From: Deltaproteobacteria bacterium
GTDB taxonomy: Bacteria; Desulfobacterota; Desulfarculia; JACQYL01
Direction of reading: 5' to 3'
DNA length: 52,474 bases
Assembly: GCA_016208165.1 (NCBI GenBank)
Contig: JACQYL010000058.1
Span: 98,460 to 150,933, forward strand
The notes beneath the pieces were generated by a model. The model was given only the letters and a program-made list of their open reading frames with translations. It was not told where the DNA came from and did no database searches. Made by a program: the position numbers and the translations under genes. Positions 1,028 through 38,758 of this stretch are shown piece after piece; within the stretch, counting starts at the first letter, position 1, and every line of letters begins with the position of its first letter.

Positions 1028-2272
1028 TCACCGGTATTCGAGGATGCTTTCCGTCAATCGTTCCGCTCGGGAACGGACCACCGGGTCCGGGTCCATCTCT
1101 CCGAGTTTGCGGATCTCACGATGAACGTGGGCGTCCTTGATGCCTCCTTTGAGTGTGGTAGTGTTCAATTGGTCGATGCATTCAAGTACGCGAAGACGCG
1201 TGTCCGATGGAATTCCCTTGGCCGAGGCCAGATGCACGCTCTTTTCCAGGCTGGATAGAAATACCCATAGGTAGCCGTCCCGCCGCTCGGCATAGTCGTA
1301 AAGCAGCCCCCCACCCGTCCCCTCTTTCTCTACCTTCACACGGATGATTCGATCCTGTTCCAGACGCATCGCGCGAGCCGACAACACGGTTCTGAGCAGT
1401 TCGACGGCGAGTACTCCCTCGGATGCCTCCTCTTTCTTCAAAGTCACGTTCGAGAAATAGGCTTCGATGGACTCGAGCCGGCGTCGCGTTCCTTCTGAAA
1501 ACGGCTCGGCCGATATTCCCGATTCTTCGTCAGCGAATACGCTCGAAAGTTGCAGCAATGTGTTCCATAGGATCGGATTGGCGTATGGCCCTAAATCCCG
1601 GCCGTAGCCGACAACGGACGCCACCCGTTTCAGCGCCGCCTCGATATTTCCTTCAAACGCGATCTCTCGAGCATCGAGCGCCTCGATTCGAAACAGCCTC
1701 TCCCAGGTTCTCTCGACATCCGTTTGGCCGGCAAGGGTTTTCACGAAATCCTGTGCGGCGCCTTCCACGCTCGGGAACTGCTTTCCCAACAGGTCCGAGC
1801 CGCTTTGCTCATTCATGGCTTCCAGTTCGAATGACGTATGCGCCGGATCCCACCTTTGGAAGACAAAAAGTGTTTTCCCGCTTCGGATCGTCACGGCTAA
1901 AACAGCCACAGGCCCTTCAATAGAGTCCGCTCTCCTTGACAGCAGTACATAGGTGCCTGGTTCAAGAATCCCCATTGTGCAGGTTTCGCACCCGATGCGC
2001 CCCAGAGGCCGATACCCCGCGCGCACGTCTATTTGCACGTCCGTCCCGCTGCAGCGGGATGCCAACACGCAAAGGAGACCCGCGTCCGCCGGTGCGGCTT
2101 TTCGCAGGCCGTTCAGGACCGCAGCGCCGTTTCTTCCGGACAGATCCGCTACCGAGGATCTTATGGAGCCGCCCCCGGGGCCGGACGTGCAACCGAGGAA
2201 TCCAACCAACATCGCCGTCAGGACGATCGATACACACGACCGTCCTGCACTCGATCTCCGTGAATACGACAT
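1028..2272 (-). CDS. Predicted outer-membrane lipoprotein of unknown function
   Basis: I do not recognise the family. The start was placed at the Met followed by SYSRRSSAGRS because a signal sequence with lipobox LGC (Cys28) comes directly after it; the frame stays open upstream to a GTG at 2419, but those 49 residues look like untranslated leader. The mature part of about 385 residues is mixed alpha/beta without obvious repeats or membrane segments. Its middle and C-terminal half, from about residue 180, is rich in Leu, Glu and Arg and probably helical. It is the last gene of the minus-strand run with the M48 protease, SH3 protein and giant CHAT lipoprotein, 224 bp behind the M48 gene, so it may have its own promoter. 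Assignment to the same envelope system is by position only. Confidence 0.7.
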   Translation of the reverse strand: MSYSRRSSAGRSCVSIVLTAMLVGFLGCTSGPGGGSIRSSVADLSGRNGAAVLNGLRKAAPADAGLLCVLASRCSGTDVQIDVRAGYRPLGRIGCETCTMGILEPGTYVLLSRRADSIEGPVAVLAVTIRSGKTLFVFQRWDPAHTSFELEAMNEQSGSDLLGKQFPSVEGAAQDFVKTLAGQTDVERTWERLFRIEALDAREIAFEGNIEAALKRVASVVGYGRDLGPYANPILWNTLLQLSSVFADEESGISAEPFSEGTRRRLESIEAYFSNVTLKKEEASEGVLAVELLRTVLSARAMRLEQDRIIRVKVEKEGTGGGLLYDYAERRDGYLWVFLSSLEKSVHLASAKGIPSDTRLRVLECIDQLNTTTLKGGIKDAHVHREIRKLGEMDPDPVVRSRAERLTESILEYR

Positions 2273-2496
2273 CGGTCTCAGATATCCGGACAAAGACTTC
2301 TTTCTCTCGAATATGTAGCCGGCGCCGAAACGCAGGGTCCGGCGTAGGAACTCAGGGGTCTGTAGCACGGTAATCACGATCTGTTGGGGAAGCTCCGGCG
2401 ACGCCACGAAAAGCAGCACGACGCTTCACGCATGTGATCGACTTCTTAAGGGTCCGGCATCTTCCAACAATGTAGTTGGGTGTCCTTTTTAATGAC

Positions 2497-3456
2497 TTAT
2501 TTTACGCCTTTCTCGTACTTCTGGAATCTTCTCTCGACCGTGGCCAGATCCTTCCGGCCCGGATATTGATTCAGACGTTCTTCCAATTTGGCAATCCGCT
2601 GGTCCAGGGGAGGATGGGTCGAAAACCAGGAGCCTTTTTTCTCGGATCGGCTCTGCACCTCTTCCAATGCCTTCAACACTTCGATCATGCCCATGGGATC
2701 GTAACCGGTACGATAGGCGGTTTCCATACCCGCTTGATCGGCTTCGAATTCCATCGCCTTGTCCAATCCCTTGTCAAAGAGTACAGTCTGCAGGTCGCCG
2801 ATCATGCTCTCGAATTGCTTGCCTTTCTCCCCTTTCATGTTGGCGGCCGTTATTTTTCCGATTCCCTCGAAAAAACGCGCGCGCCGAATGGACTGCAGCG
2901 CATGTTTGTGCGCTACGTGTCCAACCTCGTGAGCCAGCACACACGCCAGTTGGGCCTCGTTGTCCAGCAGCTTCACCAAACCTTCGCTGACGAATATGAT
3001 TCCGCCCGGACAGCTGAACGCGTTCAAAATATCGCTCTGCACCACGACAAACCGGTACGGAATCGTAGGTCTTGTGGAATTCCTGGCAACGGCCATGCCG
3101 ACGAGATTCACGTATTTCTGTAGCGCTGCATTGTTCACCGGCAGACCGTATCGATGAAACCCTTCCAAGGCCAGACTTTCGCCAATGGTTCTTTCAGATT
3201 CAAAGTCAATTTCCGTGGCGCCGGAGAGAAGAGTGGTGACTCCCTCGAAAATCTTTCGCTCTTTCGAGTCTTCCTTTCCCAGGAAGTCCAAAAGTCCCGC
3301 CATTCGAATCTCTTCGGCTGCGGATTCCGTTTGCTGCGACGGCGTATCGACCGATTCCGTTTGGCGCGCGTCTTCGCATGCCACCATGTTGGCCGCTACC
3401 AGGGTCGCAGCCAGGACCAAACCAACCATGCTCAAGATCAACATCTTCGATTTCAT
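2497..3456 (-). CDS. M48-family metalloprotease lipoprotein
   Basis: This is a zinc endopeptidase of the M48 family, the family of the E. coli envelope proteases LoiP, BepA and YcaL. The zinc motif HEVGH (His176, Glu177, His180) is followed by the third ligand region FEADQ with Glu238. The fold around it (NAFSCPGGIIFVSEGL before the motif) is typical, and the length of 319 residues fits family members without added TPRs. The N-terminus has a hydrophobic segment ending in MVAC, a plausible lipobox with Cys27, so it probably sits in the periplasm on a membrane. The start used has GAGGAAG at good spacing; an in-frame GTG seven codons upstream overlaps the previous gene and is less likely. It lies 17 bp behind the SH3 gene and is probably co-transcribed with the CHAT gene. 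Confidence 0.92.
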   Translation of the reverse strand: MKSKMLILSMVGLVLAATLVAANMVACEDARQTESVDTPSQQTESAAEEIRMAGLLDFLGKEDSKERKIFEGVTTLLSGATEIDFESERTIGESLALEGFHRYGLPVNNAALQKYVNLVGMAVARNSTRPTIPYRFVVVQSDILNAFSCPGGIIFVSEGLVKLLDNEAQLACVLAHEVGHVAHKHALQSIRRARFFEGIGKITAANMKGEKGKQFESMIGDLQTVLFDKGLDKAMEFEADQAGMETAYRTGYDPMGMIEVLKALEEVQSRSEKKGSWFSTHPPLDQRIAKLEERLNQYPGRKDLATVERRFQKYEKGVK

Positions 3457-3473
3457 GATAGCTTCCTCACGGT

Positions 3474-3986
3474 TCACTCAGCATATTCGCCGATTTTGCC
3501 TTCTCTGAGAAAGGCAAACAGTTCATCTTCCGTCACGTTTATCGAAAGGACGCGATCCAACGCCTCTTTGTACTTGGCCGGCGTACCCTGGTTCTCGGCA
3601 TAGGTCGCCGACTCTTTGGACAAGCCCCTGATGCTTCGAGCCGTATCGGCCTCGTCGGCTTGGATGCTGCTCCCCGAGAGCGCGGAGAAAAGCTGAGTCC
3701 CTTCGCCCTCCACTTCCTTTTGGGGAGGGGAATCCGAAAGGCGGCCTCTGTACATCCAGCCCTCCCGTCCGTCCGAGGTCCGAATCTTGTACCAACTTCC
3801 CTCTTCCGATACCAGTTTCACCTCGTCACCAACAGCAAGGGTGGCGATGGTCTCCGAAGAGGCCTTTTTGTCGGCTTTGAGCTTGGCGGCCTGGGAAGTC
3901 ACCCAAAGCGTACTCTGGGCCAGGGCCAAGGCGCCTGCGAACATCAGACTCGTGATGAGCAGCCATAGAAACCTCTGAACTCTCAT
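3474..3986 (-). CDS. Exported protein with bacterial SH3 domain
   Basis: The first 22 residues form a signal peptide ending in ALA. Residues about 25-88 match a bacterial SH3 domain (SH3_3 type), with the hallmark order AKLKADKKASSETIATLAVGD, then GSWYKI, then GREGWMYR. Such domains bind peptidoglycan or peptides in the periplasm. The C-terminal 80 residues (SALSGSSIQADEADTARSI onward) are polar and helical, with no known domain. The pattern resembles SH3-containing partners that travel with M48 proteases. A Shine-Dalgarno sequence GGGAGA precedes the ATG. The gene lies 69 bp downstream of the giant CHAT gene and 17 bp upstream of the M48 gene, so all three are probably one transcript. Substrate or ligand is unknown. 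Confidence 0.85.
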   Translation of the reverse strand: MRVQRFLWLLITSLMFAGALALAQSTLWVTSQAAKLKADKKASSETIATLAVGDEVKLVSEEGSWYKIRTSDGREGWMYRGRLSDSPPQKEVEGEGTQLFSALSGSSIQADEADTARSIRGLSKESATYAENQGTPAKYKEALDRVLSINVTEDELFAFLREGKIGEYAE

Positions 3987-4055
3987 GAATCATCTCCCTC
4001 TGTTATCTTGGAACATTAGCGCATGTACGAACATGTTCGCCCTCCGCTCCGAGAC

Positions 4056-7000
4056 CTAAAAGTAATCCCCCACCAGGACGAACGCTCCCCAGTAACCCGG
4101 ATGCGGATAGCGGTTTTTCACGTGAAGTATGGCCCGTCTCAGGCTTTCGGATTTGCTTCTGAGACTGTATTCGCGATAGAACTTTTTAACCAGCATGGCG
4201 GTGGAAACATCGCTCACCCGCCACAGGCTGGATATGATCGCGTGCGTGCCCGCATACAGAAACGCACGGTTCATGCCGATTACATCATCGCCGCTCGTTA
4301 GTTTTCCCAGGCCGGTCTGACAGGCGCTAAGCACGACGAGATCTGCGTTAATCCGAAGGCCAAACACTTCGGCCGCCTCGAGATTCCCGTCCGATTGAGC
4401 GTCCCTCGCCAGCAGCACGGCTGAAAACAGCGGGTTAATGGGGTCGAATTCACCATGGGAAGCCAGATGGATAATGCCGAACTCCCCGATATGTTCGATT
4501 ATCCAGCTTTCCGTGGCCCTGTCGCCGGTGAGCGTTGTAACATTGGGAAAATTCCAGCCGATGCTGGTGACTTCACGCTCGGCGAAGGGAAGCTCCAGGG
4601 CCGGATTGTGCAAGTCCGGATTTCCGATGGCCAGAACCCGAACGTTCTTGTCCCCTCTCCTCCGCTCGAGTGTATACTTTAGCACACTTGCGCTCGGCAG
4701 GTAAAACAGCGGATACCGGTCGGCCAGGTACGCTTCCCCATCCTGGAGCGTGGCAAAGGAAAGATAGTGTAACGGCCCGTGGGGAACGATGCCCACCAGT
4801 TGGCCGCTTTTCAGACGGGAAATCACCGGCGAAAAGAGGTTCGCATATAAGCCTCGGGACTCGGTTTCGAGTGGTTCCAGATTCTGAAGCCTCCGCCGGT
4901 AGTTCACGATGGAAGCGGCAAGGAACTCCCGTCCCACGGGCACTCGAAACAGGTCCAGCGAATCCGCTTTCATGATCCAGCAGAATGTTTCCACCGCCGT
5001 GACGTAATAGGCTAGAAGCGCCACGTCGGGGGCCAGCAACTCCTGCACTCCTTTCGAGGAGAGGGGATTTACCGAAACCAGCGAGGCCAGTTCCGGATTA
5101 GAAGCCTCGATGTCCAGCATGATGTCCCGATACTCGTCGTTGAGCTGCTGAAGCGTCCGCTGATAGATGGCTCGTTCGGCCTCGTCGGCGGACTGGGCCG
5201 CCAGAGCCTCCTGCTCCCGTATTCCCGCCCTGACCGTCGTCAACTTTTGGTATAGCTGCTGATCCAGTTGGCCTCGCAAGGTCAACTGCTGGTTTCCCAG
5301 AAGATCGATGAGACCGCGGGCACGGGATCGCTCCCCCACGTCGAACGCTTCCTCGACGTGGCCGAGATCGCAAAGCAGGGTAACCAAGGCTTCGTACACC
5401 ACCAGCTTATTGTTAATGAACCCGTCTTTAAGCTGATCCAGCTTGATTTCCGCACGCATGCCTTCAACGATATCGGCGGCTCGAGTCAGCAGCTCACGGG
5501 CCTCCTGTTTGCGACCTTCATCGAGTCGTATCAGAGCGATCCCATACAAAGCACGCCATTCCGTTTCCCGCAAAGCCATGGAACGGGAAGCTTCCAGAGC
5601 CTTTTCGAAAGCCGAGAGGGCTTCTTTGCTTCGCTTTAACGCGCTGAGAGCCTCGCCCAGAGCCAAGAGAATCTTGGCCTCGTTTATTCGGTTTCCGATA
5701 CTCGAAGCTTCCGCGAGAGCATCCTCGAGATAGGGAACGGCCTTCTCCGGCTGTCCCATGCGCAGGTAGGTGAGGCCCGTGTTGCGCAGGTCATACGCAA
5801 TAGCCCATCGGGACTTGAGTTTCCGATCCATGGCCAAGGCCTGATCCAGGCTCGCAAGTGCGTCCTCGAACCTGCCCATCTCACGATACACCATCCCCTT
5901 ATTGTTCAAAATGGTGGCGATTTCATCCTTCCTGACCCTCAGCTTCTGCGCCGAAGTCATGGCTTGCTCCAATTGGCGCAGGGCCCTTTGGGGATCCCCA
6001 AGGGTCCACCAGATGAGCCCCGAGGTGTTCAAGGCGAGCACTTCCTCGAGAGGCCAACCGTTTTGCCGGGCCCAGTCAAGCACCTGGCGCTGAAGCTTGA
6101 AAGCTTCCTGGTATCTGGCCTGGTACCAGGCGTTGTTCGCTTGTTCGATAACAACACCGGCCTTCAGGCGCAGCAGAGACGCATCGTTACCTGCCAGATC
6201 CAGGGATTGGGAGTAGTTTCGTTCCGCCTCAACGAAATCGCCCAGCAGCCGGCAGCAGCGTCCGAGGTCCAGGAGCGCCTGCGCCATTCCGTGTTTTGAT
6301 CCGAGTTCCTTGTAGATACCCAAGGCCCGTTCATAATTCTGCCGGGCCAGAGCGTATTGGCTGAGCCTGAGGTCGTAGATGCGGCCGATGCTCTCATATT
6401 GACGGGCCAGCAGCTCCTTCTTGTCCAGCGCCTTGCTGAGGGAAGCGGCATCCTGGAATTTCACCAGGGCGCGATCGTATTCCGTAGCGTTCTCGAGAAC
6501 CACGCCAAGATCGGATAGGGCCCGAACCTGTTCCGGTCTGAGTTCGAGATTGGACATGATCTCGAGGGCGTCTTCCAAGGCGGGAACGGCTTCTGCGTAT
6601 CGTTCCGCACGGGCCAGCACGAGACCCCACTTCAGCAGGGCTTCAGCGTGGCTTTCCGAGTCCGGTTGGCTGCCGGCTATGATGTCCACTAATGCCTTCG
6701 CGTAAGACGCCGCCTCGTCCAACCGATCGGCAAGGAATGCGGATTCGCGCGCGTAGCGGTACAGGTCCGGAAGGTGGCGCTTTAGAGACTCCGTTTCCCC
6801 GGCAACGCTCAACGCGTTTTCCAAAAGAGAAAGGGCTTTCAGATACTCTCCGGATTTGAACGCACCCACTCCCCGGTCCACGTAACCCACGAACTGCTGC
6901 CTGCCCAGTTCCAAAGCGGCTTCCGGGGAAAGGCCCCAGTATCCGACAAGATGCCAATCTTCCGTCGCCCCCTCGGACCGGACAGCCCGAATCGCGTCCA

Positions 7001-10000
7001 ATGCGGACGTATCCGCGTAGAGTCGGAAAAACGGTTCGAGGAAAGCCGATTTCTCCTGCGGACGCGTCGGCAGCAACAGCGTTGGACATCCCATGAGCGA
7101 AAACAGCTGACCCAACTCGTACGCATATTCCAGGGAAGCTTTGGGGAGAACCGCCATGGAGATTCCCGGCAGTCGGCCGAACAGCCGGTCTAGCGGCAGG
7201 TTGCGGCCCTGACTCAATTCAATGGCAGGCTTCCTTTGAGCGCTTTCCCCGGGTCTGGTGGGTACGGAAATGGCCGAATATACGTTCGTATTGACCAGGA
7301 GACTGTGGGCCCCGGAAACCGAAGCGAAAATGTCGCTTTCCACCGCATCCTCAGGCAGACTCGTTACCTTGAACGGCCCCGGGAGGGCATATACGCCGGG
7401 GAATTCGAGCACTTTCCGTTTGAACGGCTTCCGGTTCCGAGCCGAACGAACCAGATGAGTGCCGCTGAGAGCCAGGGGGCCCTGAACGTCAAACGGAAGT
7501 CTCGACGGTTCCTCGAATGCCCGAACCTCAACCCCGGATTCCGATCGTTTCAGAGTTTCCCGGCGAACCGGATGTTCGACGCGGATCTCGTCGGGTGTCA
7601 GAACGAACGCCGCCCATTGCGGCTTTGGATCGGACAGTGCGAAAAACCGCATACACAGGCCGTCGGCCGGCAGCGATTCCATCACATCGATAGCTTCCAC
7701 CGGCTCGGGAACAAAAATCCCCACAACGCCGGCAGGCTCCTCGATAGAGCGGGAGAGAGCGGCATCTTCGACCTCGCTCCCGTATCTTCGAACGAGATCG
7801 AGGTATTTCGTCAGGTGGGGTCCGTTCTTTTCCGCCTCTCCGTCCCGGACCGCGTTTCTCGCCTCCTCCTCGGCATCGAGCGCCAGCCCCAGGAGGATCA
7901 GCAACCGATCCTGGTCGGATTCCTTAGTGGCCAATGTAGCCGGAAAAGGGAGATTCTCGCGGTTTTTCCCGATGGACAGGGATAGAAGTTCCTTTTCCTG
8001 CCCCAATCGTATGGAAACATACTCTCGTTCCGCTTCGTTGGCCTTTGTGCGATCACGGTCGAGCTTCCTCAAGGACAACAGCACCGGGTAGCTTTTACGA
8101 ATACGTTCCTGCTCTTTCCTGGGGATATCGCCCAAGACCAAGGGAGCCATCCGCTGGACCCGATCAAGCTCCGAAAGGCGCTCGATCAGATTGAAAGCCT
8201 CTTCCGTCCGCCCGGATCCGATCATTTCCGTCACCATCGGGGCGAACCGGTCTGCGACCTCCATGGGACCGCAACCGGCCCGAATCGCGGTTACCGATTC
8301 GAGCGCTTCCAGGGCCTCCTCGAACCGGCCGAGCCCGGCAAGCGCACGCCACTGGATGTCCGGCAACAAGCCCCGACGGGACAGGTCCAGCGCAAATTCG
8401 AAATGGTTCCTCATGCCTTTAACGTCGCCGTTCGATCTCGCGGTGTCCGCCAAGTTTATCTGAATCGCCCCCCCGAGGGCCAGGGATTCTCTGTCCACCG
8501 ACGGTTTGTCGAGTTCAAGGGTCTCGAGGCCCAAATAGAAATGGGTGGCCGCGCGCTCCACGGCCGTCATCCGTCGAACCGCAGCCTCCACTTTATCGAT
8601 ATCGCCGGAAACCGGAGTGCTCAGCGCCGCGACTCCCATGGTATTGTGATAGGTTGCCACGGTCCGGCGATCGGCCGGATCGGGGAAACGGGACAACAGC
8701 TGCATGGTTTTGCGATCGAGGTCGATCAACAGTTCCCGGCGCCGCTCCTGTTGGCTTTCGCCCGCAGGCATGGCCAACATACAGCGAACCATATTGGTAA
8801 CATTGAGCACTGTGCTCACAGGATTCCCGAGACGAAGGGTCAACTCCGCCGAACGTCGGAAGTAATCGAAAGCCCGGAGGGGGTCTTGCCGGGCATAAGC
8901 CACCAGACCCGCCCGGTGGAACAACAAGGACACACCGTAGGCATTTTCGTCCTGAACTTCCGTATCCGGCGGATACCGTTGCAACTCCTTTTCCAGCGCC
9001 GCTTCGGCCGGCTGCAACGCCCCCAAATCCGTCTGGATTCGGGCGATGAAAGCTTCGGCCAACCGCTCCTCCTGTTCCGCGGTAAATCCGTACATGGCCT
9101 GAGTGGAACCGATTTTGTCCAGAGCCACGTCAAAGGCCAAACCCACCCCCGCGCCTGTCGGTTTTTCCTGTTGCTTCGACGTCACGCCGTATTTGCGCGC
9201 AAGGTCTATGACTTCCCGAAAGTCCTTGGATGCCCCTTCGAGTAACCGGTTTCGTTCCTCTCCGGAAACCGCTCCCGCTTCCATATACGCGTTGAAAGCG
9301 ATGGACCGTTTGTTTGTCGCCAGATTCCTTGTAAGGCCCAGCCGCTGGTTAATCTCGTAAGCTCCTTCAAACATCTCCTGCGCCGGCGGCCAATTCCCGT
9401 CTTCCTGGTACGCCAATCCCAACCGGTCCAACATCTCGGCCTTCAACTCGGTCAGTCGGGAGGGAAATACGAGGGCGTCCCGAACTCTTGAAAGCTTATA
9501 CGCCAACGCCTGTTGGGCTTCGTCCCGATTCTTCGGGACCAGCTTCAGCAGATCGGGGATTAGAGACGCCTGTTCGGACAGCAGCGATTCCATGGCCTTC
9601 CGGTAGGATTGCCACGCAGGGCTGGGCGGCGGGTCCACTGTCTTCCGGCTGATCTCGAACAATTTCTGGTTGAGCGCAGCCTGGCGCCGCGCCAAGTCTT
9701 TGGCCTTTCCTTCGAGCTCTTTTTCTCCCATGGCTGGATTGAGGATGCTTTCGGATATGTAACGATCCATGCGGCCGAACAGCTCGGAGGCATGACGCGG
9801 CTGAATCCGCTCCTCGATGAGTGTGAGGGCCTGCTTATACGCTGCGATACTCTGTTTTCGGTCTCCGACTTGAAAAGCGGCGGCGCCAAAACGTCGAAGA
9901 AAAAGTACTTCCGTGTCTTCGTTATCGAACGCCATTCCGGTTTCGAACCGCTTCGAATAGTACTCAAATGCTTTCCCGTATTGCCCGAGCAAAAAGTGCA

Positions 10001-12599
10001 CATTGCCCAGATTCAGCAGCAGATTCGAATGGTTGTCAGGGTTTCTCGCGGCATCGTTCAGGAAGAAAGCCTTCCGGTACTCTTCCAGCCCCTTCTCGAG
10101 TTGGCCCTTTTCGTCGTGCACGGTCTCCAGGACTTCGTACACATAGCCCAGCGTCTGGTGGAAATACTCGATCTGCCCCTGGAGATGAATGGCCCGCTCG
10201 ATGAGTGTCCGGGCCTCATCGAGTTCTTTTTTGCCCTCGAAATACGTGTAGCAGAGACCTGCACTGTACAGTGCAACAGCGTCCGCGGAATCCTGTCCGA
10301 TCTGTTTTCGATACAGAGACAGGACTTCCGGCAACTGTTTTTGAGCCGCCGCGCACTTGATATAGCCCCTGTGAGCTTCCACTATGGTATAGTCGTAGCG
10401 AATCAGATCCCGGAACGTCGTCCGCGCGGAGGCCACCTCACCAATCCTGTACAAGAAGTCGCCGGCGGAAACGGACTTTCGTATGTACCCTTCTCTAGCC
10501 AGAAGGTAGATGTGATCCTCGTAGGGACGCTTAGCGATCTCCGTCTCGTATAGATTCAAAGCCTCGTGAAATCGTTCTTCCCGATACAGTATTTCCGCCA
10601 GCGCCAGCCGGGCGGCCGCCGTCTGCGTGGTCACCCCGGGAAACGTTTCGAGGACTCGCCTGTACGCCTCCTTGGCCGCCTGCCATTCGTTGTCCGCGAA
10701 GTGAAGATCGCCGATACGGTTCCATGCGCCCATGGCCAATCTCGGCAGAGACTCCAAACGCTTGTGCGCAATCCTCTGCAGCAAAGCCACACGGGTTTCA
10801 ACCTTGCTGTCGCCGACGCCCTCCGTGCTGAGTTCCAATATCCGGTCCACGGCGAGGTCCGCCCATGTCTCAACATCCGAGTAGTCTTTGACCACTTCCA
10901 TGTACGCAGGAATCACGGCATCGGCGCGGCCCAAGCGGCTGAGCGTGTCCGCCCGCAAAACGCGCGCCTCCGCCGCCTGGCTGCGATCATCCGAAGCGTT
11001 CCGGATCACCCTGTCCAATATATGAACCGCATCGAGCAACGAGTCCGATTTCCGCCCCAGATCCAACAGCAGACGTCCCTGCTCGATGCCGCTCCGAAGC
11101 CCAATCGCGAGTTGTTGCTCATGCTTTTTCGCCGGCGATTCGAGGTCCGCTCGTCCCTTTTTCAGCAGGGCTTGCTGCTCAGCCTCGTTTCGGGAAGCAC
11201 TCCATTGCCGGCGCGTTCTGATGGACACCAGGTGAATCTCCGAAAAGCCCGCCTGAGGCTGAATCTCAGGAAAACGTTCCACTACGAGGCGAAAGGCGTT
11301 TTCCGCTGCAGAGGACATGTGCAGCCGCAGATACAATTCGCCCATGTCATAGGCTGCCTTCGCCACGTACGGACGTTGGTCCGGAAAACGCTCGACGACT
11401 TTGTAATATCCCAATACGGCCAGATGAAGATCCGGAGGATAGGCCCGTGACAGTTCTCCGGCCAGGTCCATTTGTGAGGCCACTTCGGATTGCAGCGGGA
11501 TCTCTCCCTCCGTCGGAAGGGCCCAGACATTGCTGATACCCGAGCGACCGGACAGGAAGTAGAGTCCGGACTCACCGGTCTTGGGTTCCAGGGCCGAGTA
11601 GGACGCAGACGTCAACGGATAGGCCGTCTCCACCTTTCCGGTAACAGGCGCTCGAGCCACTACGGCGTTGTCCAACGTGTTTATTGTTCCGTCGCCATTC
11701 GTATCCGATCCAAATCGCGTAAAATAAACGCTTTCCGCGTCTCCGGACCAGGTGGGGAAAAGGTCCCATTCGGGTCCCTGCGTGAGCGCGGTAACCGTCC
11801 CGTGCGGTAAGTCCAGGAGAAAAAGATCGCCTCCGCCGTCGTTTCTGTCGGATACGAACGCGCACTTGGACCCGTCCGGCGATACCGACGGAAATGCTGC
11901 ATCTCCTCCCGTATCCAGGACGCGAGGTACGGTTTCCACTGCACGAAGGTCCAAAGTCGCCAGGTGACGTTGGGGGTCGGGTGGACGGTTCAGATGGAAC
12001 ATCAAGGTTCCGCCGTCCGGAAAAAAGCAGGGCGAGCTGTCTTCCGTATCTCGTCCCGTTAGACGCCGGGGCCGGACTCCGTCCTGGTCGAGCGGCATGA
12101 CGAAAATGTCGCCCTTGGCGTCGTAACTGGTTCCCACATAGGCGATCCAACGGCCGTCCTGAGAGAAGGCCGGAGCAAGGATCTTGCCCGGATCCGTCGC
12201 GACCCGCCTGGGTAATACCACCACCGAAGGATCGGCGGATCTCAACCAGAGAGCCGAAATACCCCCGCGTTCCGTAACGTAGGCCAACCATTTACCGTCA
12301 TGGGACAACGTCGTGTATAGAACGGGGTCGGATTCGAACGTAATTTGGAGTGGAACATTTACGGGAAGTCGTTTGGGGCGAATCTGCTCCGTACTTTGAA
12401 ACATCACGGGTTTCGGCGCATATCCGGAAGGAGGAGCCGCGTCTACAGACGGTTGCGGCGCCGGCGCCGTCCCCGTCGCCGCACCTCGCCATCCGGAGCA
12501 CGCGCTTATAACGAGTGAGGAAGCGAGGACGAAGAGCAATAGCAGAGCGAAACGCGCCCTGATGCACAAGGTTGAAACGGATAACCCGAACCCGTTCAT
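4056..12599 (-). CDS. Giant lipoprotein: beta-propeller, TPR arrays, pseudo-CHAT and CHAT protease
   Basis: The 2847-residue product has a signal sequence with lipobox ISAC (Cys34), so it should be lipid-anchored outside the cytoplasm. Residues about 60-370 are PD40/TolB-like propeller blades (repeats of the type 'SPDGSKCAFVSDR' and 'SQDGRWIAYVGT') with a DTNGDGTIN loop near residue 300. Tandem TPRs fill about 390-1560 and 1885-2480. Residues about 2510-2845 are a CHAT domain, a caspase-like Cys protease, with an intact His-Cys pair: HLASHGEF (His2715) and VVLSACQTGLG (Cys2760). Residues about 1600-1880 look like a second CHAT domain without the dyad: LVNTNVY and VLPKASLE stand where His and Cys should be. 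The start overlaps the stop of the DUF1318 gene by 4 bp, which indicates translational coupling. Function is unknown; a protease or a scaffold of the envelope is the best inference. Confidence 0.93.
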   Translation of the reverse strand: MNGFGLSVSTLCIRARFALLLLFVLASSLVISACSGWRGAATGTAPAPQPSVDAAPPSGYAPKPVMFQSTEQIRPKRLPVNVPLQITFESDPVLYTTLSHDGKWLAYVTERGGISALWLRSADPSVVVLPRRVATDPGKILAPAFSQDGRWIAYVGTSYDAKGDIFVMPLDQDGVRPRRLTGRDTEDSSPCFFPDGGTLMFHLNRPPDPQRHLATLDLRAVETVPRVLDTGGDAAFPSVSPDGSKCAFVSDRNDGGGDLFLLDLPHGTVTALTQGPEWDLFPTWSGDAESVYFTRFGSDTNGDGTINTLDNAVVARAPVTGKVETAYPLTSASYSALEPKTGESGLYFLSGRSGISNVWALPTEGEIPLQSEVASQMDLAGELSRAYPPDLHLAVLGYYKVVERFPDQRPYVAKAAYDMGELYLRLHMSSAAENAFRLVVERFPEIQPQAGFSEIHLVSIRTRRQWSASRNEAEQQALLKKGRADLESPAKKHEQQLAIGLRSGIEQGRLLLDLGRKSDSLLDAVHILDRVIRNASDDRSQAAEARVLRADTLSRLGRADAVIPAYMEVVKDYSDVETWADLAVDRILELSTEGVGDSKVETRVALLQRIAHKRLESLPRLAMGAWNRIGDLHFADNEWQAAKEAYRRVLETFPGVTTQTAAARLALAEILYREERFHEALNLYETEIAKRPYEDHIYLLAREGYIRKSVSAGDFLYRIGEVASARTTFRDLIRYDYTIVEAHRGYIKCAAAQKQLPEVLSLYRKQIGQDSADAVALYSAGLCYTYFEGKKELDEARTLIERAIHLQGQIEYFHQTLGYVYEVLETVHDEKGQLEKGLEEYRKAFFLNDAARNPDNHSNLLLNLGNVHFLLGQYGKAFEYYSKRFETGMAFDNEDTEVLFLRRFGAAAFQVGDRKQSIAAYKQALTLIEERIQPRHASELFGRMDRYISESILNPAMGEKELEGKAKDLARRQAALNQKLFEISRKTVDPPPSPAWQSYRKAMESLLSEQASLIPDLLKLVPKNRDEAQQALAYKLSRVRDALVFPSRLTELKAEMLDRLGLAYQEDGNWPPAQEMFEGAYEINQRLGLTRNLATNKRSIAFNAYMEAGAVSGEERNRLLEGASKDFREVIDLARKYGVTSKQQEKPTGAGVGLAFDVALDKIGSTQAMYGFTAEQEERLAEAFIARIQTDLGALQPAEAALEKELQRYPPDTEVQDENAYGVSLLFHRAGLVAYARQDPLRAFDYFRRSAELTLRLGNPVSTVLNVTNMVRCMLAMPAGESQQERRRELLIDLDRKTMQLLSRFPDPADRRTVATYHNTMGVAALSTPVSGDIDKVEAAVRRMTAVERAATHFYLGLETLELDKPSVDRESLALGGAIQINLADTARSNGDVKGMRNHFEFALDLSRRGLLPDIQWRALAGLGRFEEALEALESVTAIRAGCGPMEVADRFAPMVTEMIGSGRTEEAFNLIERLSELDRVQRMAPLVLGDIPRKEQERIRKSYPVLLSLRKLDRDRTKANEAEREYVSIRLGQEKELLSLSIGKNRENLPFPATLATKESDQDRLLILLGLALDAEEEARNAVRDGEAEKNGPHLTKYLDLVRRYGSEVEDAALSRSIEEPAGVVGIFVPEPVEAIDVMESLPADGLCMRFFALSDPKPQWAAFVLTPDEIRVEHPVRRETLKRSESGVEVRAFEEPSRLPFDVQGPLALSGTHLVRSARNRKPFKRKVLEFPGVYALPGPFKVTSLPEDAVESDIFASVSGAHSLLVNTNVYSAISVPTRPGESAQRKPAIELSQGRNLPLDRLFGRLPGISMAVLPKASLEYAYELGQLFSLMGCPTLLLPTRPQEKSAFLEPFFRLYADTSALDAIRAVRSEGATEDWHLVGYWGLSPEAALELGRQQFVGYVDRGVGAFKSGEYLKALSLLENALSVAGETESLKRHLPDLYRYARESAFLADRLDEAASYAKALVDIIAGSQPDSESHAEALLKWGLVLARAERYAEAVPALEDALEIMSNLELRPEQVRALSDLGVVLENATEYDRALVKFQDAASLSKALDKKELLARQYESIGRIYDLRLSQYALARQNYERALGIYKELGSKHGMAQALLDLGRCCRLLGDFVEAERNYSQSLDLAGNDASLLRLKAGVVIEQANNAWYQARYQEAFKLQRQVLDWARQNGWPLEEVLALNTSGLIWWTLGDPQRALRQLEQAMTSAQKLRVRKDEIATILNNKGMVYREMGRFEDALASLDQALAMDRKLKSRWAIAYDLRNTGLTYLRMGQPEKAVPYLEDALAEASSIGNRINEAKILLALGEALSALKRSKEALSAFEKALEASRSMALRETEWRALYGIALIRLDEGRKQEARELLTRAADIVEGMRAEIKLDQLKDGFINNKLVVYEALVTLLCDLGHVEEAFDVGERSRARGLIDLLGNQQLTLRGQLDQQLYQKLTTVRAGIREQEALAAQSADEAERAIYQRTLQQLNDEYRDIMLDIEASNPELASLVSVNPLSSKGVQELLAPDVALLAYYVTAVETFCWIMKADSLDLFRVPVGREFLAASIVNYRRRLQNLEPLETESRGLYANLFSPVISRLKSGQLVGIVPHGPLHYLSFATLQDGEAYLADRYPLFYLPSASVLKYTLERRRGDKNVRVLAIGNPDLHNPALELPFAEREVTSIGWNFPNVTTLTGDRATESWIIEHIGEFGIIHLASHGEFDPINPLFSAVLLARDAQSDGNLEAAEVFGLRINADLVVLSACQTGLGKLTSGDDVIGMNRAFLYAGTHAIISSLWRVSDVSTAMLVKKFYREYSLRSKSESLRRAILHVKNRYPHPGYWGAFVLVGDYF

Positions 12600-13183
12600 G
12601 GTTTCACCGTCCAGGCGCCGTCTTCCGCCTGCACCCGGTCCCCGGAAGAGGCATTTTCCCGGTTAAGATCGCCGAAGACGCGCCTGATTTTGGGCAGATC
12701 GTCCTGGGTGAAGCTTTCATTGATCTGGATCACCCGTCGCATGACTTTTTCCCGCGCGTCATTGATCTGCCCTACCACGTATTTGAACTCGTCTTCTTTA
12801 TACCGAGCCGCGAACTCTCCGAGACTCTCGGGCGCGTTATCCTTGTCCATGGGAAACGACGCCAGAAGTCCTTCATTGTTCTCTCCCACCCATCCCAGTC
12901 GCTTGAACGCGTCAAGATCGTCCGCATGAAAGGCGATCGTTTCCAGGGCGGTGTTTACCTCCTCCTGTTCCCCACTTGTGCGGGGAGGCTCCTCGATACG
13001 TCCCAGAGGATCCACTCCACGAACGGACGCAACGGTCAGCACCTCCCTGTTCAACGAATTGTATGAACCCAACACCTGGTTTTCCAGAGCGGTACGTTCG
13101 CTCACCACGTTCACTTGCACCTTCGCCAACGTACACCCGAACAGGGCGATCAATGGAACGAGCACAATGAGAACTCGCCGCAT
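12596..13183 (-). CDS. YdbL-like DUF1318 lipoprotein
   Basis: This 195-residue protein has a short signal with lipobox LFGC (Cys17). The start was chosen at the ATG preceded by AAAGGAG; an in-frame upstream start 7 codons earlier has no such site. After a linker (VQVNVVSERTALENQVLGSY) it shows two marks of the DUF1318/YdbL family: an RLGWVGENNEGLL segment, like the 'vGE...GyL' core of YdbL, and a C-terminal SGDRVQAEDGAWTVK segment, like the 'pGe.vQ...G.Wv' end of YdbL. In E. coli, YdbL is encoded with YdbH and the lipoprotein YnbE, which form an intermembrane phospholipid bridge. Here the YdbH-like gene lies 33 bp upstream, supporting the same pathway. The combination of a lipid anchor and the YdbL core in one chain differs from E. 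coli, where the anchor is a separate small protein. Confidence 0.85.
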   Translation of the reverse strand: MRRVLIVLVPLIALFGCTLAKVQVNVVSERTALENQVLGSYNSLNREVLTVASVRGVDPLGRIEEPPRTSGEQEEVNTALETIAFHADDLDAFKRLGWVGENNEGLLASFPMDKDNAPESLGEFAARYKEDEFKYVVGQINDAREKVMRRVIQINESFTQDDLPKIRRVFGDLNRENASSGDRVQAEDGAWTVKP

Positions 13184-13216
13184 GTAGGCTCCTTTCAAAA
13201 CCAAAGAGATCGGAAG

Positions 13217-16200
13217 TTAAGACCGATCGTTTTCAAACTTGAGTCGGCCGTCCGAGTCCACCGTGATGGCCGTGGCGCCGGCCGCTCTCATCAAAGAGAT
13301 CACCATACCCAGGCCTGAAAGGCTCTTTTCAATGCCCTGAAGTTTGGGCAGATTCGCTATATTGACTCTGTCGATGCCCGGCAAATCGATGCGAGCGCCG
13401 CCCGCCTCGACCTCGCCGGATAAAGAAAGATTTCCTTCGCGAATACCCAGTTTGATCCATCTGGGGGTCCCGATACGCAAGAGCTTTCGCTGGCTGACGA
13501 TGCTCTCGTTATTTTCATACGGGTCCAATGCAAAAAGGAATCTCTCGAGGGCTCTCGATCCGATTCGAGTGAAATCCAAGTCCAGGTTCAGGTCTTCAAG
13601 GAACCGGTTTACGTCCTGGAGAAGAGGCGCGCGCAGGGACACCTGTCCGCTGATTTCCGCCTCTTCGTCCGGCACGCCTCCGATGGTATCGGGCATCAGT
13701 TTCTTGGCGTTTATGCCGGAAAACGCAAGGTCCGCTCTAATCATAAAGTCCGTTTCAGCCCGGTCAACGGAAAACGAGCCAAGGATACTTCCTCCCAGCA
13801 GATCCATGCGAAAATAGTCGACAACCGGCAGTCCCTTCACGAGCCGGAATTCCATCTGCTCGTTGGTCAGGTCAATGTTCAACCCACCCGCGTGAAGGCG
13901 GGCCGCATCGAAAGCCAGACTACGCTGCCTTCCGAAACGTCCCTGCAGATCGTCCGCCAGTCTTCTCGCCATCTGGTCGTCCATGTTCCCGCTTTGCGAA
14001 ATGAGGGGCCTGGGTTCGAGCACCTGCACGGACAGAAACGACTTTTCATTCGTAGGGGAACTCGCGGCCTTGCCGTCCATGGTCAGATGGTATTGCTTCT
14101 CTATGTTGATATGACTCTGAAAATTGGACACCTGGAGCAGATCACCCACACGGGCATCGAGTTTGGGGCTGTTGAACCAGACCCTGGCCTGCAATTCTTT
14201 GTCCGGGGTCACTTGTAGTTGGGCCCCGGCGTCAATAGCCCCTTTCAGGGTCACGACGGCGACGGTCTCGTCCAGGGAAATGCGCTTGAAGTCTTCAAAA
14301 GATCCGAAAAGGGTCAGATTCAGTTTAAGCGGTTGAGCGAGGTCCCCCAAGACAGGGAGCGACTCGATTTGCTCCATTTCCAATTCACCCGAAATCCGGT
14401 TTCGCAAAAGGCCCTCTTCCATCGTCAGTTGGAAGGGCTTTTTCGAGCCGATTCGACCGATCTTTAAAACGGTTTCGTTTTCTCCGGGAATGTCCACAGA
14501 GATATGGTTCAATGAAGTCACCAATTGAATCTGGTCAACGAAGGGGATACGTTTAGCCGGCCGATCCTTGGAGGACCAGCTTGCTTTCACGTCTTCCACT
14601 TCTTGGGTCGAGGGAAGCCGCCCGGAAAACCGCCAATTCAAAGTCAGTTCCCCGTCCACTTTTCCTTTAACCCCCAGGTCCGGGGGCAACAAAGGCATCA
14701 ACTCGGCCGGGCGTAAGGTCGTATGACCTTCAGCGTCCAATCGTTCGAAGCCCGTGTTGCGCGCTCCGACCTTGACTCCGGCATCGATGAATTTTCCCAG
14801 TTGCAACCGGGCCTCGAAGCGCCCCGCATCCAAACGCACCGGGTTCAATCCGGTCAAACGGATCGTGTCGGCGGCCCCCTTCAAATCCAACGAGGTTGTC
14901 ACGTTCCCTTGGGGCAAGGCCTGCAACTCGATGGAAGGCGCGGCGACACCCAATTCTTTCACATCGATGGTGATAGACCGGTCGGCTTCCAGACGGCATT
15001 GAAGGCCCAGACCTTGCCGCAGTTCGGCGATGCGAATCTTCTTCGGAACTTCCAGCCCCTTAAGAATCAAGGTCTCCGACACGGATATGCTGCCGAGGAG
15101 GCCGAACAAGGTATTTTCCGACGGCGCAAGGTCCTCGCCGGAAATCTCGACCGGCGTCAGCTCGAGTTTCTCGAAAGACATTGGTTGGGATCCGCTCAGC
15201 TCGAACCGCTCGACCCCGCAGTTGGCCGACAATCGGAACCGTGAGGGCAGGCCGGCCTCGATGCCGGCCTCTCCCCGCAATATCAGAAATACCACCTTGT
15301 CTAAGGAAGCGGCTCCTCCAGGGAGATCCAGGACCAGACCAGGCACGGTCAAGGAAACGCCTTCGATTTCCACTTGATTCGGCCCTTCCGGTACAGGCCC
15401 TGTCAGACGCAGTGCGTCCATCAAGAGTTCGGCGTTGATCATTTCTCCGTTGCGTCCCTTGGGAAGAGCGAGGGATGCAGGCAACAGCGGTTGGACCAGG
15501 GTCAGCAGTTGGCCCAAGTCCAGAGAGACCGGACCCAGATGAATGTCCGCTATGGGCTTTGCCTGACTCAACCCTTCAAGATTGCCCCGCCAGGCCAATC
15601 GACAGTTCTTCTGAAGCTGCAACTCGCCCGATTTCACTTCCAGCAGGTCCTTCTTCCGGTGGAACGCCCCATCCTGAAACACTTTTAAGTCTGCCGGTCC
15701 CATCCGGCCCGCCTTCAAAGGTCCACCCGAGATTTCCAGGCCTATGGCGGCCACTTTGGTGTCAAAAAGAAACGTCTCCGGATCCGGGGCCTTCGCAGTA
15801 ACACTAAGATCCACGGAGCCGGTGCATGTCGGCAGGCCGACCGGAAGGAACGGCTCAACAGATTTCAGCAATTGAGCCAGATCCAGATGAATCCGGGTGT
15901 CCAGGCTGGTTTCCTCCAGCGAACCATCGACCAGCACTCGGCCTCCGGGTACATTCAATTCCATATGCGTCCTGGCCAAAGTGAGGGCGATCCGGCCGTG
16001 GGTATCTGTAAAATTCTCTATTCGTGCAGACATCGTGACGCCCTGCAAGGGTTTACCGTCCACCTCCAAATTCAACGAAGTTTTCAATTCGATCGGCTGA
16101 TCCATGGAAGGTATATCGAGTTGTAGGGATCCTTCGTCCGCCTTCAGCGTGCTTCCTCGGACTCGATCCTCGTACAGCAACGACAGGTTGTTCAGGCGAA

Positions 16201-16723
16201 CGCGTCCCTCCATCTCCTTCGGAGCTTCGAACGTGAGGGTTCTCCAATCCCCTACGGAGGGTTCCGGTTCTTCCTCTTCGGAAGGTTCGAACGGGGCGAG
16301 CAGGCGTTCGAGATTGGTCCGGCCGTCAGGTCCTTTGATCAGGCGCGCGGCCAATCCGTCCACATCGACATCGAATAGGATTCTCCGACGAAGCAGGTTT
16401 TTCAGGTCCACAAACAGATGTGCATACTCGAGCTCGAACAACGGCTTTTGGGAAAGTTCGGGATCGTCGGGAATGCGCACGCCCTCGAGAATGATTCCCC
16501 GAGACCAGGTCCACGTTAACGAATCCACCTCGACGGGGCGATGAAGAGATTGCGACGCCTGTTGTTCAAGGCGGTTTCTGAACCACTCTGTTGAAACCAC
16601 TTGGGGCAAAAAGAAGACTGCGACCGCAATGAACGCGATCAGCATCAGGAGGGATGCGCCAAACCAGAGCAGCCATTTACCGGCCCGGCGTGTTTTCGTT
16701 CCGGAATCTATACCGTCGGCCAT
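13217..16723 (-). CDS. AsmA/YdbH-like intermembrane lipid-transport protein
   Basis: The 1168-residue product has a short cytoplasmic N-terminus, one membrane segment (about residues 18-40) and then a long periplasmic region. The segment VSTEWFRNRLEQQASQSLHR followed by PVEVDSLTW is the start typical of AsmA superfamily proteins. The rest is a repetitive pattern of amphipathic beta strands, as expected for the hydrophobic-groove bridge of this superfamily. The C-terminal part (LDLLGGSILGSF-like segment MDLLGGSILGSFSV, then FSGINAKKL) matches the conserved C-terminal region of YdbH-like members. It is presumably anchored in the inner membrane and reaches towards the outer membrane to move phospholipids. 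It is the first gene of the minus-strand operon, with a DUF1318 lipoprotein gene directly behind it, as in the E. coli ydbH locus. The length is greater than YdbH (about 880 residues). Confidence 0.85.
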   Translation of the reverse strand: MADGIDSGTKTRRAGKWLLWFGASLLMLIAFIAVAVFFLPQVVSTEWFRNRLEQQASQSLHRPVEVDSLTWTWSRGIILEGVRIPDDPELSQKPLFELEYAHLFVDLKNLLRRRILFDVDVDGLAARLIKGPDGRTNLERLLAPFEPSEEEEPEPSVGDWRTLTFEAPKEMEGRVRLNNLSLLYEDRVRGSTLKADEGSLQLDIPSMDQPIELKTSLNLEVDGKPLQGVTMSARIENFTDTHGRIALTLARTHMELNVPGGRVLVDGSLEETSLDTRIHLDLAQLLKSVEPFLPVGLPTCTGSVDLSVTAKAPDPETFLFDTKVAAIGLEISGGPLKAGRMGPADLKVFQDGAFHRKKDLLEVKSGELQLQKNCRLAWRGNLEGLSQAKPIADIHLGPVSLDLGQLLTLVQPLLPASLALPKGRNGEMINAELLMDALRLTGPVPEGPNQVEIEGVSLTVPGLVLDLPGGAASLDKVVFLILRGEAGIEAGLPSRFRLSANCGVERFELSGSQPMSFEKLELTPVEISGEDLAPSENTLFGLLGSISVSETLILKGLEVPKKIRIAELRQGLGLQCRLEADRSITIDVKELGVAAPSIELQALPQGNVTTSLDLKGAADTIRLTGLNPVRLDAGRFEARLQLGKFIDAGVKVGARNTGFERLDAEGHTTLRPAELMPLLPPDLGVKGKVDGELTLNWRFSGRLPSTQEVEDVKASWSSKDRPAKRIPFVDQIQLVTSLNHISVDIPGENETVLKIGRIGSKKPFQLTMEEGLLRNRISGELEMEQIESLPVLGDLAQPLKLNLTLFGSFEDFKRISLDETVAVVTLKGAIDAGAQLQVTPDKELQARVWFNSPKLDARVGDLLQVSNFQSHINIEKQYHLTMDGKAASSPTNEKSFLSVQVLEPRPLISQSGNMDDQMARRLADDLQGRFGRQRSLAFDAARLHAGGLNIDLTNEQMEFRLVKGLPVVDYFRMDLLGGSILGSFSVDRAETDFMIRADLAFSGINAKKLMPDTIGGVPDEEAEISGQVSLRAPLLQDVNRFLEDLNLDLDFTRIGSRALERFLFALDPYENNESIVSQRKLLRIGTPRWIKLGIREGNLSLSGEVEAGGARIDLPGIDRVNIANLPKLQGIEKSLSGLGMVISLMRAAGATAITVDSDGRLKFENDRS

Positions 16724-26463: not shown

Positions 26464-26737
26464 GGGAGTTTAGCGGATACACTATGCTATTAGATAGAGA
26501 ACAACAACCCGCCCTGTATACGGATTTGCGTACGACAGTGGGATTCTTCCGCGGAACGGACCGAGTGGACAGGCTACTCCATGAAACAAGAGTGCGGGAG
26601 GGACGGAAGGCGCATTTCGCACCCGAAGACGCATTGAACGGCCAGCCCGTTCAGAGACATTCCGCGACCGGCCTTCCTTGGAGAGCGTTCGATTTTTGAT
26701 CTACACCCAACCATTACGACAAGAAGGAGTCAAGGCT

Positions 26738-36920: not shown

Positions 36921-38114
36921 ATGAGCCGGCATAAAACCGTTATTCTGGTGGGCGACGGCATGGGAGACTATCCCTTGGAGGAGCTTTCCGGCCGTACCCC
37001 GCTGCAGGCGGCGCACACGCCGAATATGGACGCCATCGCCCGCCGTGGCCGCCTCGGACTGGTGCGCACCATTCCCCAGGGCATGGAAGCGGGCAGCGAT
37101 GTGGCCAATCTGAGCATTATGGGGTACGACCCTAGGAAATACCACACCGGACGGGCTCCCCTGGAAGCCGCCAGCATGGGCATCGAGTTGGCGCCGGACG
37201 AAGTGGCGTTTCGTTGCAATCTGGTCACCCTCGATTTCCGGCAAGGCGCCGTCTATATGGAGGACTATTCCGCCGGCCATATCGAATCCGCGTCAGCCCG
37301 CCCGTTGATCGAAGCACTGGATAAAGAACTGGGAAACGGCGAGTTGGCTTTCTATCCCGGTGTCAGCTACAGGCATCTGATGGTGTGGAAAGGCGGCCCT
37401 GAAAACGCCCCGAGTTTTCCTCCCCACGACCTCCTCGGTCAGGAGGTGAGTACACTGCTGACCGACGAAAGGATGCCGGTCCTGAACGAGCTCATCCGGC
37501 GATCCTGGGGGATCATCGAATCGACCCCCCGCACGGGAAACGGCCTCAAGGCCAACTCGATCTGGCTTTGGGGATCCGGCAAGGCGCCCAACATGCCGGG
37601 CCTTTTCGAACGCTTCGGCATCAGAGGCGGGGTGATTTCGGCCGTGGATCTATTGAAAGGCATCGGAGTATATGCGGGCATGGAGAGCATCGAGGTGCCG
37701 GGGGCCACGGGGTACCTCGACACCAATTACGAGGGAAAGGCTCAATATGCGCTGGATCGTTTAAAGGACCTGGATCTGGTGTATCTGCACGTCGAGGCCC
37801 CGGACGAGGCGGCCCATTCCGGCTCCATCGAGAACAAGATCCGCGCCATAGAAGACTTTGACCGGCGGGTTGTGGGCCCTGTGATCAAGGGTCTACGGCA
37901 ATTCGGGCGCTACAGGGTCCTCTTGATCACGGATCACAATACGCCCATTTCCGTGCGGACCCACACGAGCGAGCCGGTACCCTTCGCCGTGCTGGACAGC
38001 TCGGATTTGCTCGAGGAAAACCCGGACAGATCCTTTGACGAGACGGCCGCCGCACGCACGGGAGACGTTGTGGAAGCCGCCCACGAACTGATGGGACAGG
38101 TGGCGCGGCCGTGA
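36921..38114 (+). CDS. ApgM-family phosphotransferase, probable homoserine kinase
   Basis: The protein belongs to the archaeal-type, cofactor-independent phosphoglycerate mutase (ApgM) family of the alkaline-phosphatase superfamily. The start at MSRHKTVILVGDGMGD matches the family N-terminus. The nucleophile region reads GSDVANLSIMGYDP, and metal-binding segments include HVEAPDEAAH and LITDHNTP. Length 397 residues. Some ApgM-like proteins encoded beside hom have been shown to act as homoserine kinases in bacteria without ThrB. Here it lies 63 bp after hom and no classic thrB is in the window, so that role is more likely than glycolytic mutase activity. The ribosome site is weak. The gene overlaps the thioesterase gene by 4 bp. 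Confidence 0.85.
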   Translation: MSRHKTVILVGDGMGDYPLEELSGRTPLQAAHTPNMDAIARRGRLGLVRTIPQGMEAGSDVANLSIMGYDPRKYHTGRAPLEAASMGIELAPDEVAFRCNLVTLDFRQGAVYMEDYSAGHIESASARPLIEALDKELGNGELAFYPGVSYRHLMVWKGGPENAPSFPPHDLLGQEVSTLLTDERMPVLNELIRRSWGIIESTPRTGNGLKANSIWLWGSGKAPNMPGLFERFGIRGGVISAVDLLKGIGVYAGMESIEVPGATGYLDTNYEGKAQYALDRLKDLDLVYLHVEAPDEAAHSGSIENKIRAIEDFDRRVVGPVIKGLRQFGRYRVLLITDHNTPISVRTHTSEPVPFAVLDSSDLLEENPDRSFDETAAARTGDVVEAAHELMGQVARP

Positions 38115-38527: not shown

Positions 38528-38599
38528 CCCTCCGCCGAACTAAACTTCCCTGAACCGGGAACGGTCTCTTTTATAAATGATAAGACGTCAGGAATGCTC

Positions 38600-38628
38600 T
38601 TGACAGGAAGGCTCGGAATAAGTATTAA
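38600..38628 (+). promoter_or_regulatory. Sigma-70 promoter of the initiator tRNA gene
   Basis: A perfect TTGACA is followed after 17 bp by TATTAA. Transcription would start about 7 nt before the tRNA, as is usual for a tRNA gene. Confidence 0.75.
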
Positions 38629-38641
38629 TAAGAAATTGTGC

Positions 38642-38718
<77 letters not shown>

Positions 38719-38726
38719 AAAAGTTC

Positions 38727-38758
38727 AGGGACTGAGGAGAAATCGGAGGTCCTTTTTT
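38727..38758 (+). terminator. Probable terminator of the tRNA gene
   Basis: A short stem (AGGGACT with GGTCCTT region, two G-T pairs) is followed by six T. It lies 8 bp behind the CCA end. Confidence 0.5.

Follow-up and report, generated by a model that had tools for sequence, protein, structure and literature searches.

The stretch of DNA examined here, a window of 52,474 nucleotides from a deltaproteobacterial genome, carries five neighbouring genes, here referred to as A to E, that constitute a conserved envelope module in Desulfobacterota. As listed in Table 1, they encode an AsmA-type bridge protein (A), a lipoprotein with a YdbL-like domain (B), a very large exported CHAT protein (C), an exported SH3-domain protein (D) and an exported M48 metalloprotease (E). 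The arrangement of these genes is far beyond chance. What is observed, at the level of sequence, are the parts themselves, their predicted export signals, their catalytic residues and their retention together.

Table 1. Positions of the genes and protein features in the window
Feature	Position	Strand	Size or residues	Matches and remarks
A, AsmA-type trans-envelope bridge gene	13217-16723	minus	1168 aa	
B, lipoprotein with YdbL-like DUF1318 domain	12596-13204	minus	202 aa as listed from TTG	
DUF1318 (YdbL-like) domain of B	12602-12925	minus	residues 94-201	
C, exported propeller/TPR/pseudo-CHAT/TPR/CHAT protein	4056-12599	minus	2847 aa	
TolB-like PD40 beta-propeller of C	11460-12347	minus	residues ~85-380	PF07676, TIGR02800
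Pseudo-CHAT of C	6924-7703	minus	residues ~1633-1892	separase/Csx29-like fold
Catalytic CHAT of C	4065-4859	minus	residues 2581-2845	PF12770, 9.1e-59, 199.7 bits
CHAT dyad of C	4455-4457 (His2715); 4320-4322 (Cys2760)	minus	His2715, Cys2760	
D, exported SH3-domain protein	3474-3986	minus	170 aa	PF08239
E, exported M48 metalloprotease	2497-3477	minus	326 aa	PF01435, 1.3e-34
F, unclassified lipoprotein	1028-2419	minus	463 aa	without family match

An earlier note on this DNA had described an operon of six genes, and the six minus-strand open reading frames, with their gaps and overlaps, were found at the positions it gave; its domain assignments also proved correct in outline when compared with Pfam and NCBIfam. 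A and B are separated by 12 bp, or by 33 bp when counted from the ATG at position 13183, which is more likely to be the start of B than the listed TTG. B and C overlap by 4 bp (ATGA), C and D are 69 bp apart, and D and E again overlap by 4 bp. Scans of the locus for promoters and terminators gave no excess over shuffled sequences. The sixth gene, F, follows E after 77 bp, or after approximately 220 bp if it begins at a more plausible ATG. Since F matches no family and has no homologue at orthologous loci, we rejected it as a module member; it probably lies outside the unit.

The source genome has no order-level kin among the genomes compared. A single-sequence query with B against 60 relatives matched the source genome only, and no ortholog of C was found among 63 genomes of the source's class. 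On these class-level results, the module could have been taken for a one-off. In a phylum sample of 395 genomes, C was present full length or nearly so, with 42 to 49% identity, in ten further genomes, one of them with the gene divided between two contigs. Divergent full-size relatives are encoded in a few additional genomes. In the neighbourhoods of these orthologs the order A-B-C was seen again, with D and E usually coming next and F never being present.

In a further test, an alignment of B was used as the anchor, chosen to avoid selection on C, and 84,980 species genomes were scanned. The best 80 of the 112 relatives of B were used for locus counts; by name, all belong to Desulfobacterota or to unplaced deltaproteobacterial MAGs. 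Among these best 80 of 112, 70 of the 77 loci with enough sequence have C as the gene adjoining B, in L050 in truncated form, and A lies upstream of B in 74 of 76. The earlier note had named adjacency in other genomes as a test of its proposal, and in nearly all of them the homologous genes do adjoin one another. In the same set, D follows in 41 of 49 loci and E in 35 of 44, again where there is enough sequence. In 58 of 72 loci, a start codon of C and the stop codon of B share an overlap of 4 bp. D and E are fused into one open reading frame in eight loci, which belong to Desulfovibrionales by their names and by the C tree. Cultured carriers include Geomonas species, Geobacter sp. OR-1, Desulfonema magnum and strain NaphS2, and the module is conserved in many sulfate- and metal-reducing bacteria.

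In one of the seven loci without an adjacent C (L068), the C gene is broken by a run of N, and for the other six a full-length C is encoded elsewhere in the genome, the copy belonging to L071 being split over two contigs. In the complete genome of Desulfonema magnum, the positions are 7.51 Mb for A-B, 0.41 Mb for C and 1.56 Mb for D-E. The unlinked copies of C that were checked have kept the His-Cys dyad. The idea that C is dispensable where A-B occur without it was rejected, as the whole-genome search found C elsewhere. Where no D lies beside C or B, a strong D is encoded elsewhere in eight or more of the checked genomes, two genomes have a weak D only, and one has a D that is split over contigs. 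Unlinked D genes are followed by E in nearly all mapped cases, L181 being a locus for which the ORF caller gave no clear genes. That D and E are optional was likewise mostly rejected, since a whole-genome search usually found them unlinked.

A strong B is present in 12 of the 395 genomes, which were drawn evenly from the phylum, and a full-length C in all 12 of these (hypergeometric probability of 5e-22, uncorrected for shared ancestry). In G121, one of these 12 genomes, the two genes are divergent and lie on different contigs. Two examples of loci with generic TPR-CHAT proteins (L140 and L141) have no A or B nearby. Because A to E are inherited and kept together even when the genes are no longer neighbours, the parts very probably depend on one another; other than by a joint function, it is difficult to account for genes that are retained together without being linked.

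Between its propeller and its catalytic CHAT domain, protein C contains many TPRs as identified by Pfam. An alignment of 58 full-length orthologs revealed that His2715 and Cys2760 are invariant in all of them, and this CHAT domain is the single strong one in the source genome. A second, degenerate CHAT domain, which the earlier note had overlooked, is located between two TPR arrays. Pfam gives no CHAT match to residues ~1560-1900 in any ortholog; when the region was compared with C's own CHAT domain by hhalign, a probability of 86% was obtained (E of 5e-6), whereas five other segments of C that served as controls gave at most 0.3%. An AlphaFold model of this pseudo-CHAT domain (pLDDT of 91.2) matched separase (Z of 16.1), Csx29 (Z of 15.8) and DdvA (Z of 15.5) in structural comparisons (VIA; Foldseek was also run). 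The catalytic His and Cys are absent, no Cys is frequent at the equivalent strand among the 58 orthologs, and judging from these residues the second CHAT domain is catalytically dead.

Separase is the protease that separates chromosomes in human cells, and an intact and a dead CHAT domain on a TPR scaffold are its layout, which makes C separase-like in architecture, not in ancestry. A PDB sequence search with the CHAT profile returned no match, nor did one with the AsmA profile, and the structural links of both C and A therefore rest on fold comparison. The CHAT dyad, a TPR-like superhelix and a further CHAT-fold domain in the chain are features that C shares with separase, and the dyad and superhelix are also shared with Csx29, the TPR-CHAT protein of Craspase. 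Unlike these two proteins, C is exported, has a beta-propeller and shows no association with securin, cohesin, Cas7-11 or CRISPR. Separase partners such as securin or cohesin were not found in its conserved neighbourhood, the Csx29 equivalog NF041237 scored 41 against 300 bits with C, and no Cas genes were present among the neighbourhood proteins scanned. DdvA (PDB 8rot and 8rw5), a transmembrane anti-sigma factor, resembles C in having the CHAT fold in an envelope context; however, C is soluble or a lipoprotein, is much larger, has an intact CHAT dyad and contains no anti-sigma part.

An export-type hydrophobic N terminus is predicted for all 58 full-length orthologs of C. This agrees with an extracytoplasmic location of the CHAT protein, on which the earlier note had made its proposal depend. 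Its description of C as a lipoprotein applies to the source protein, which has a lipobox, but not to C in general, as a simple pattern found a lipobox in only approximately 9 of the 58 orthologs, the rest having mostly ordinary signal peptides. In its broad lines, the C tree agrees with taxonomy and shows groups of Geobacterales and of Desulfovibrionales, subject to long-branch caveats.

Protein A matches the AsmA family (PF05170) with 49.9 bits against a cut-off of 29.8, and from its sequence it is predicted to be a membrane-anchored, lipid-bridge-like protein of the AsmA type. In its AlphaFold model (pLDDT of 81.7), a transmembrane helix (residues 10 to 37) is followed by long beta strands over the length of the protein, and fold comparison (VIA) yielded as best matches those to apolipoprotein B (Z of 15.9, with a high rmsd) and to the N terminus of Vps13 (Z of 8.8, 14% identity). 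As many of the other matches were to unrelated beta barrels, these are supportive, not proof, of the modelled architecture being that of bridge-like lipid transfer proteins. A conserved motif, TRIGSRALERFLFALDPYENNESIVSQRKLLR, is present in the C-terminal part of A (residues ~1053-1084). The source genome contains further AsmA-family genes besides A. A YdbH-like identity, as had been claimed for A, is without family-level support: no YdbH-type Pfam model matched the source protein or 36 orthologs at E values up to 1, and the only recurring Pfam matches of the orthologs are AsmA, DUF748 and YhdP.

The assignment of B as a DUF1318 lipoprotein was upheld, as PF07027 matched with 35 bits against a cut-off of 27, and in 11 of 11 B members, and a lipobox (LFGC) is present. 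The best PDB sequence match was YdbL (28oj), which is weak (E of 0.015). B also contains a conserved segment, CTLAxVxVNVVSERTALENQVLGSYN, whose Cys-ERT[AS]LE pattern was found in 77 of the 80 loci (best 80 of 112). As in the YdbH-YnbE-YdbL intermembrane bridge of E. coli, an AsmA-superfamily bridge gene is followed by a small lipoprotein/YdbL gene, and DUF1318 is common to both. The module differs in that A falls outside the YdbH family, in that DUF1318 resides in a lipoprotein, which has a new conserved segment towards its N terminus, and in the addition of two proteases and an SH3 protein. It also has no separate YnbE, for which the 12 to 33 bp between A and B leave no room, and no YnbE-type match was obtained in the 11 B proteins. 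That the conserved N-terminal segment of B does the job of YnbE is a guess.

Protein D has an SH3_3 domain and, in the alignment, conserved RSIRGLSPE and GKIGEYA motifs. In E, the zinc motif HEVGH is encoded at positions 2917-2931; HExxH is found in 29 of 30 orthologs, and an EAD-type third-ligand motif is kept with few exceptions. Of the earlier view of E as an M48 lipoprotein, the M48 part stands, but MVAC makes a weak lipobox, and several of the orthologs carry a plain or a Tat-like signal. No S41 domain was detected in A to F with Pfam and NCBIfam, save a weak match of the SH3 region of D to a MXAN_5808-type model.

How these parts might work together was inferred in the earlier note to be a membrane-lipid surveillance or quality-control cascade. 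We tentatively propose that an A-B lipid conduit, the C protease and a D/E partner protease make up one envelope module, and we infer its lipid cargo, contacts, activation and substrates as follows. Phospholipid would travel from the inner membrane to the outer one through a conduit formed by A and B. With its propeller and TPRs, C may dock on this conduit or, at the outer membrane, on B, and the state of the bridge, be it lipid flux or a lipid-derived ligand, would hold its CHAT protease inactive or active, upon which C would cleave envelope substrates. D/E would be the partner protease, assumed to bind peptidoglycan through the SH3 domain.

Previous work in Pseudomonas aeruginosa showed that LbcA-CtpA, which consists of a TPR outer-membrane lipoprotein and a protease, is less active when tamB, yhdP or ydbH is overproduced, and regulation by phospholipid flux has been proposed for NlpI-Prc of E. 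coli (PMC12569750). Separase and Csx29 are TPR-CHAT proteases that are switched by partners and cut selected substrates, often encoded nearby (PMC9729208). Control of the CHAT protease by the state of the conduit is suggested by these two precedents taken together with the switching of separase and Csx29. With LbcA-CtpA and NlpI-Prc, the module shares a TPR protein and a periplasmic protease functionally tied to AsmA bridges and phospholipid flux (PMC12569750); it differs in having a CHAT cysteine protease and an M48 protease in place of S41 and in encoding the bridge in the same operon. It is conceivable, if doubtful, that lipid passage or bridge occupancy switches a separase-like protease, with the bridge and the active/dead CHAT pair working as a single machine. 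We counted against the lipid-bridge and protease reading that A is outside the YdbH family, that there is no YnbE-like gene and that most lineages have a C without lipid anchor. Nor is the module a substitute for TamB: 8 of the 12 module genomes have TamB as well, compared with 194 of 395 overall, so that the module may have a special and not a bulk role in lipid handling.

The main rival to the lipid-conduit reading is a quality control function like that of BepA, in which the C scaffold would hold assembling outer-membrane proteins or lipoproteins beside A-B while E and C remove stalled or misfolded ones, C and D/E thus being a split and enlarged BepA. The M48 domain of E is common to BepA and LoiP, and BepA, which has TPRs of its own, is its best curated match; E has no TPR match, and C would supply the TPRs. 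The zinc site of E is conserved, and the title of 28oj terms DUF1318/YdbL chaperone-like. However, the match to BepA amounts to 97.4 bits, far below the equivalog cut-off of 570, and E comes paired or fused with an SH3 protein. In the module neighbourhoods, no gene for a beta-barrel or for LPS was seen to recur, and the presence of a pseudo-protease domain in a CHAT protease points to selective cleavage and not bulk degradation. We regard this explanation as somewhat unlikely.

The conduit might instead be regulated from within: C and/or E would process A-B to maturity, gate it or take it apart, with B or the A-B junction as conceivable places of cutting. No genes neighbour C more constantly than A and B, and the 4-bp overlap of B and C described above suggests translational coupling; against this, no conserved cleavage site was identified, and the fact that D/E and C can be unlinked from A-B weakens the case for a protease-substrate pair, so that we consider it unlikely. 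Quite improbable is a role in extracytoplasmic signalling, with C as a soluble counterpart of DdvA that senses the state of the envelope and relays it by regulated proteolysis. The structural match of the pseudo-CHAT domain to DdvA would fit such a role, as would the occurrence of other exported TPR-CHAT lipoproteins of the phylum in tandem near a zinc-finger-like open reading frame (L140), but no sigma or anti-sigma gene was seen to recur in the A-E neighbourhood and C has no membrane-spanning anti-sigma part. A role in phage defence or cell death, as other CHAT proteases have, was set aside as very improbable: CHAT and TPR proteins are common in defence, but the only PADLOC match was that of a generic TPR model to C, with none to A, B, D, E or F, the C tree is not scattered across taxonomy, and the partner genes belong to envelope housekeeping families.

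Across 5.4 million papers of the open literature, subscription papers being mostly beyond the search, we found no published description of the A-E set, in line with the earlier statement that no described system linking such a bridge with a caspase-like protease and a metalloprotease was known. What is new here is the hidden, by its residues catalytically dead, CHAT domain of C, the parts themselves coming from known families and the concept having a functional parallel; there is a real chance that A to E are a new kind of machine. AsmA bridges have so far been tied to periplasmic TPR-protease complexes indirectly, by overexpression (PMC12569750). Here, an AsmA bridge and a separase-like protease are encoded in one operon and have been kept together even after chromosomal scattering, and since the module is also found in cultured relatives, the link between bridge and protease becomes directly testable. 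If bridge and protease do work as a single switched machine, several orders of Desulfobacterota would possess a lipid transporter that has a caspase-like protease built in, the first of its kind. The module also brings the separase type of architecture, a TPR superhelix bearing an active and a pseudo-protease CHAT domain, into the periplasm of bacteria. It suggests an as yet unstudied way of coupling membrane traffic to protein cutting, and may bear on how outer-membrane growth, the cell wall and lipid supply stay in step.

The best conserved part by far of gene A, which encodes the AsmA-type bridge protein of the module, is a C-terminal motif, IGSRxLERxLYALDPYESNE...QRxLLR, at residues about 1053 to 1084. 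This motif naturally suggests itself as a candidate site at which B, the DUF1318/YdbL-like lipoprotein, would dock. The genes for the SH3 protein (D) and the M48 metalloprotease (E) form a single fused ORF at eight Desulfovibrionales-type loci (L049, L053, L058, L059, L060, L068, L072, and L092). In close relatives of these (L055, L057, and L079), D is located at another genomic place, with one case clearly mapped: in L180 (for L079), E follows the unlinked D. ORF F, the sixth, belongs to no known family and is without a counterpart at orthologous loci; its real start probably lies near 2275.

In lineage f51, genome G121 encodes a divergent B (L137, G121:C87:8288-8851) and a divergent full-size C, the propeller-TPR-CHAT protein (L041, G121:C28), on separate contigs, and no A was recognized near either. 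This arrangement possibly represents the module in a reduced or an early form.

Elsewhere in the window, the G+C-poor stretch, which the tRNA gene adjoins, may be an insertion site or a low-coding stretch.

Features of the window discussed here
Feature	Position	Strand	Length	Remarks
F	1028-2419	minus	463 aa	lipoprotein-like
A	13217-16723	minus		AsmA-type bridge
Long ORF	26678-28492		604 aa	no Pfam matches
G+C-poor stretch	38001-40000			G+C 47% vs about 53-60% in rest of window
tRNA-Met	38642-38718			
Long ORF	51251-52423		390 aa	no Pfam matches

At a further locus (L140, G253:C38:25001-45000), three tandem genes for exported TPR-CHAT lipoproteins of 838 to 976 aa come after two other ORFs, of which one is short and shows a zinc-finger-like Cys pattern, and the other, of 658 aa, matches TPR/CHAT weakly. 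The tandem lipoproteins look like an extracytoplasmic CHAT family distinct from C, which, by analogy with the transmembrane anti-sigma factor DdvA, might be linked to sigma/anti-sigma signaling.
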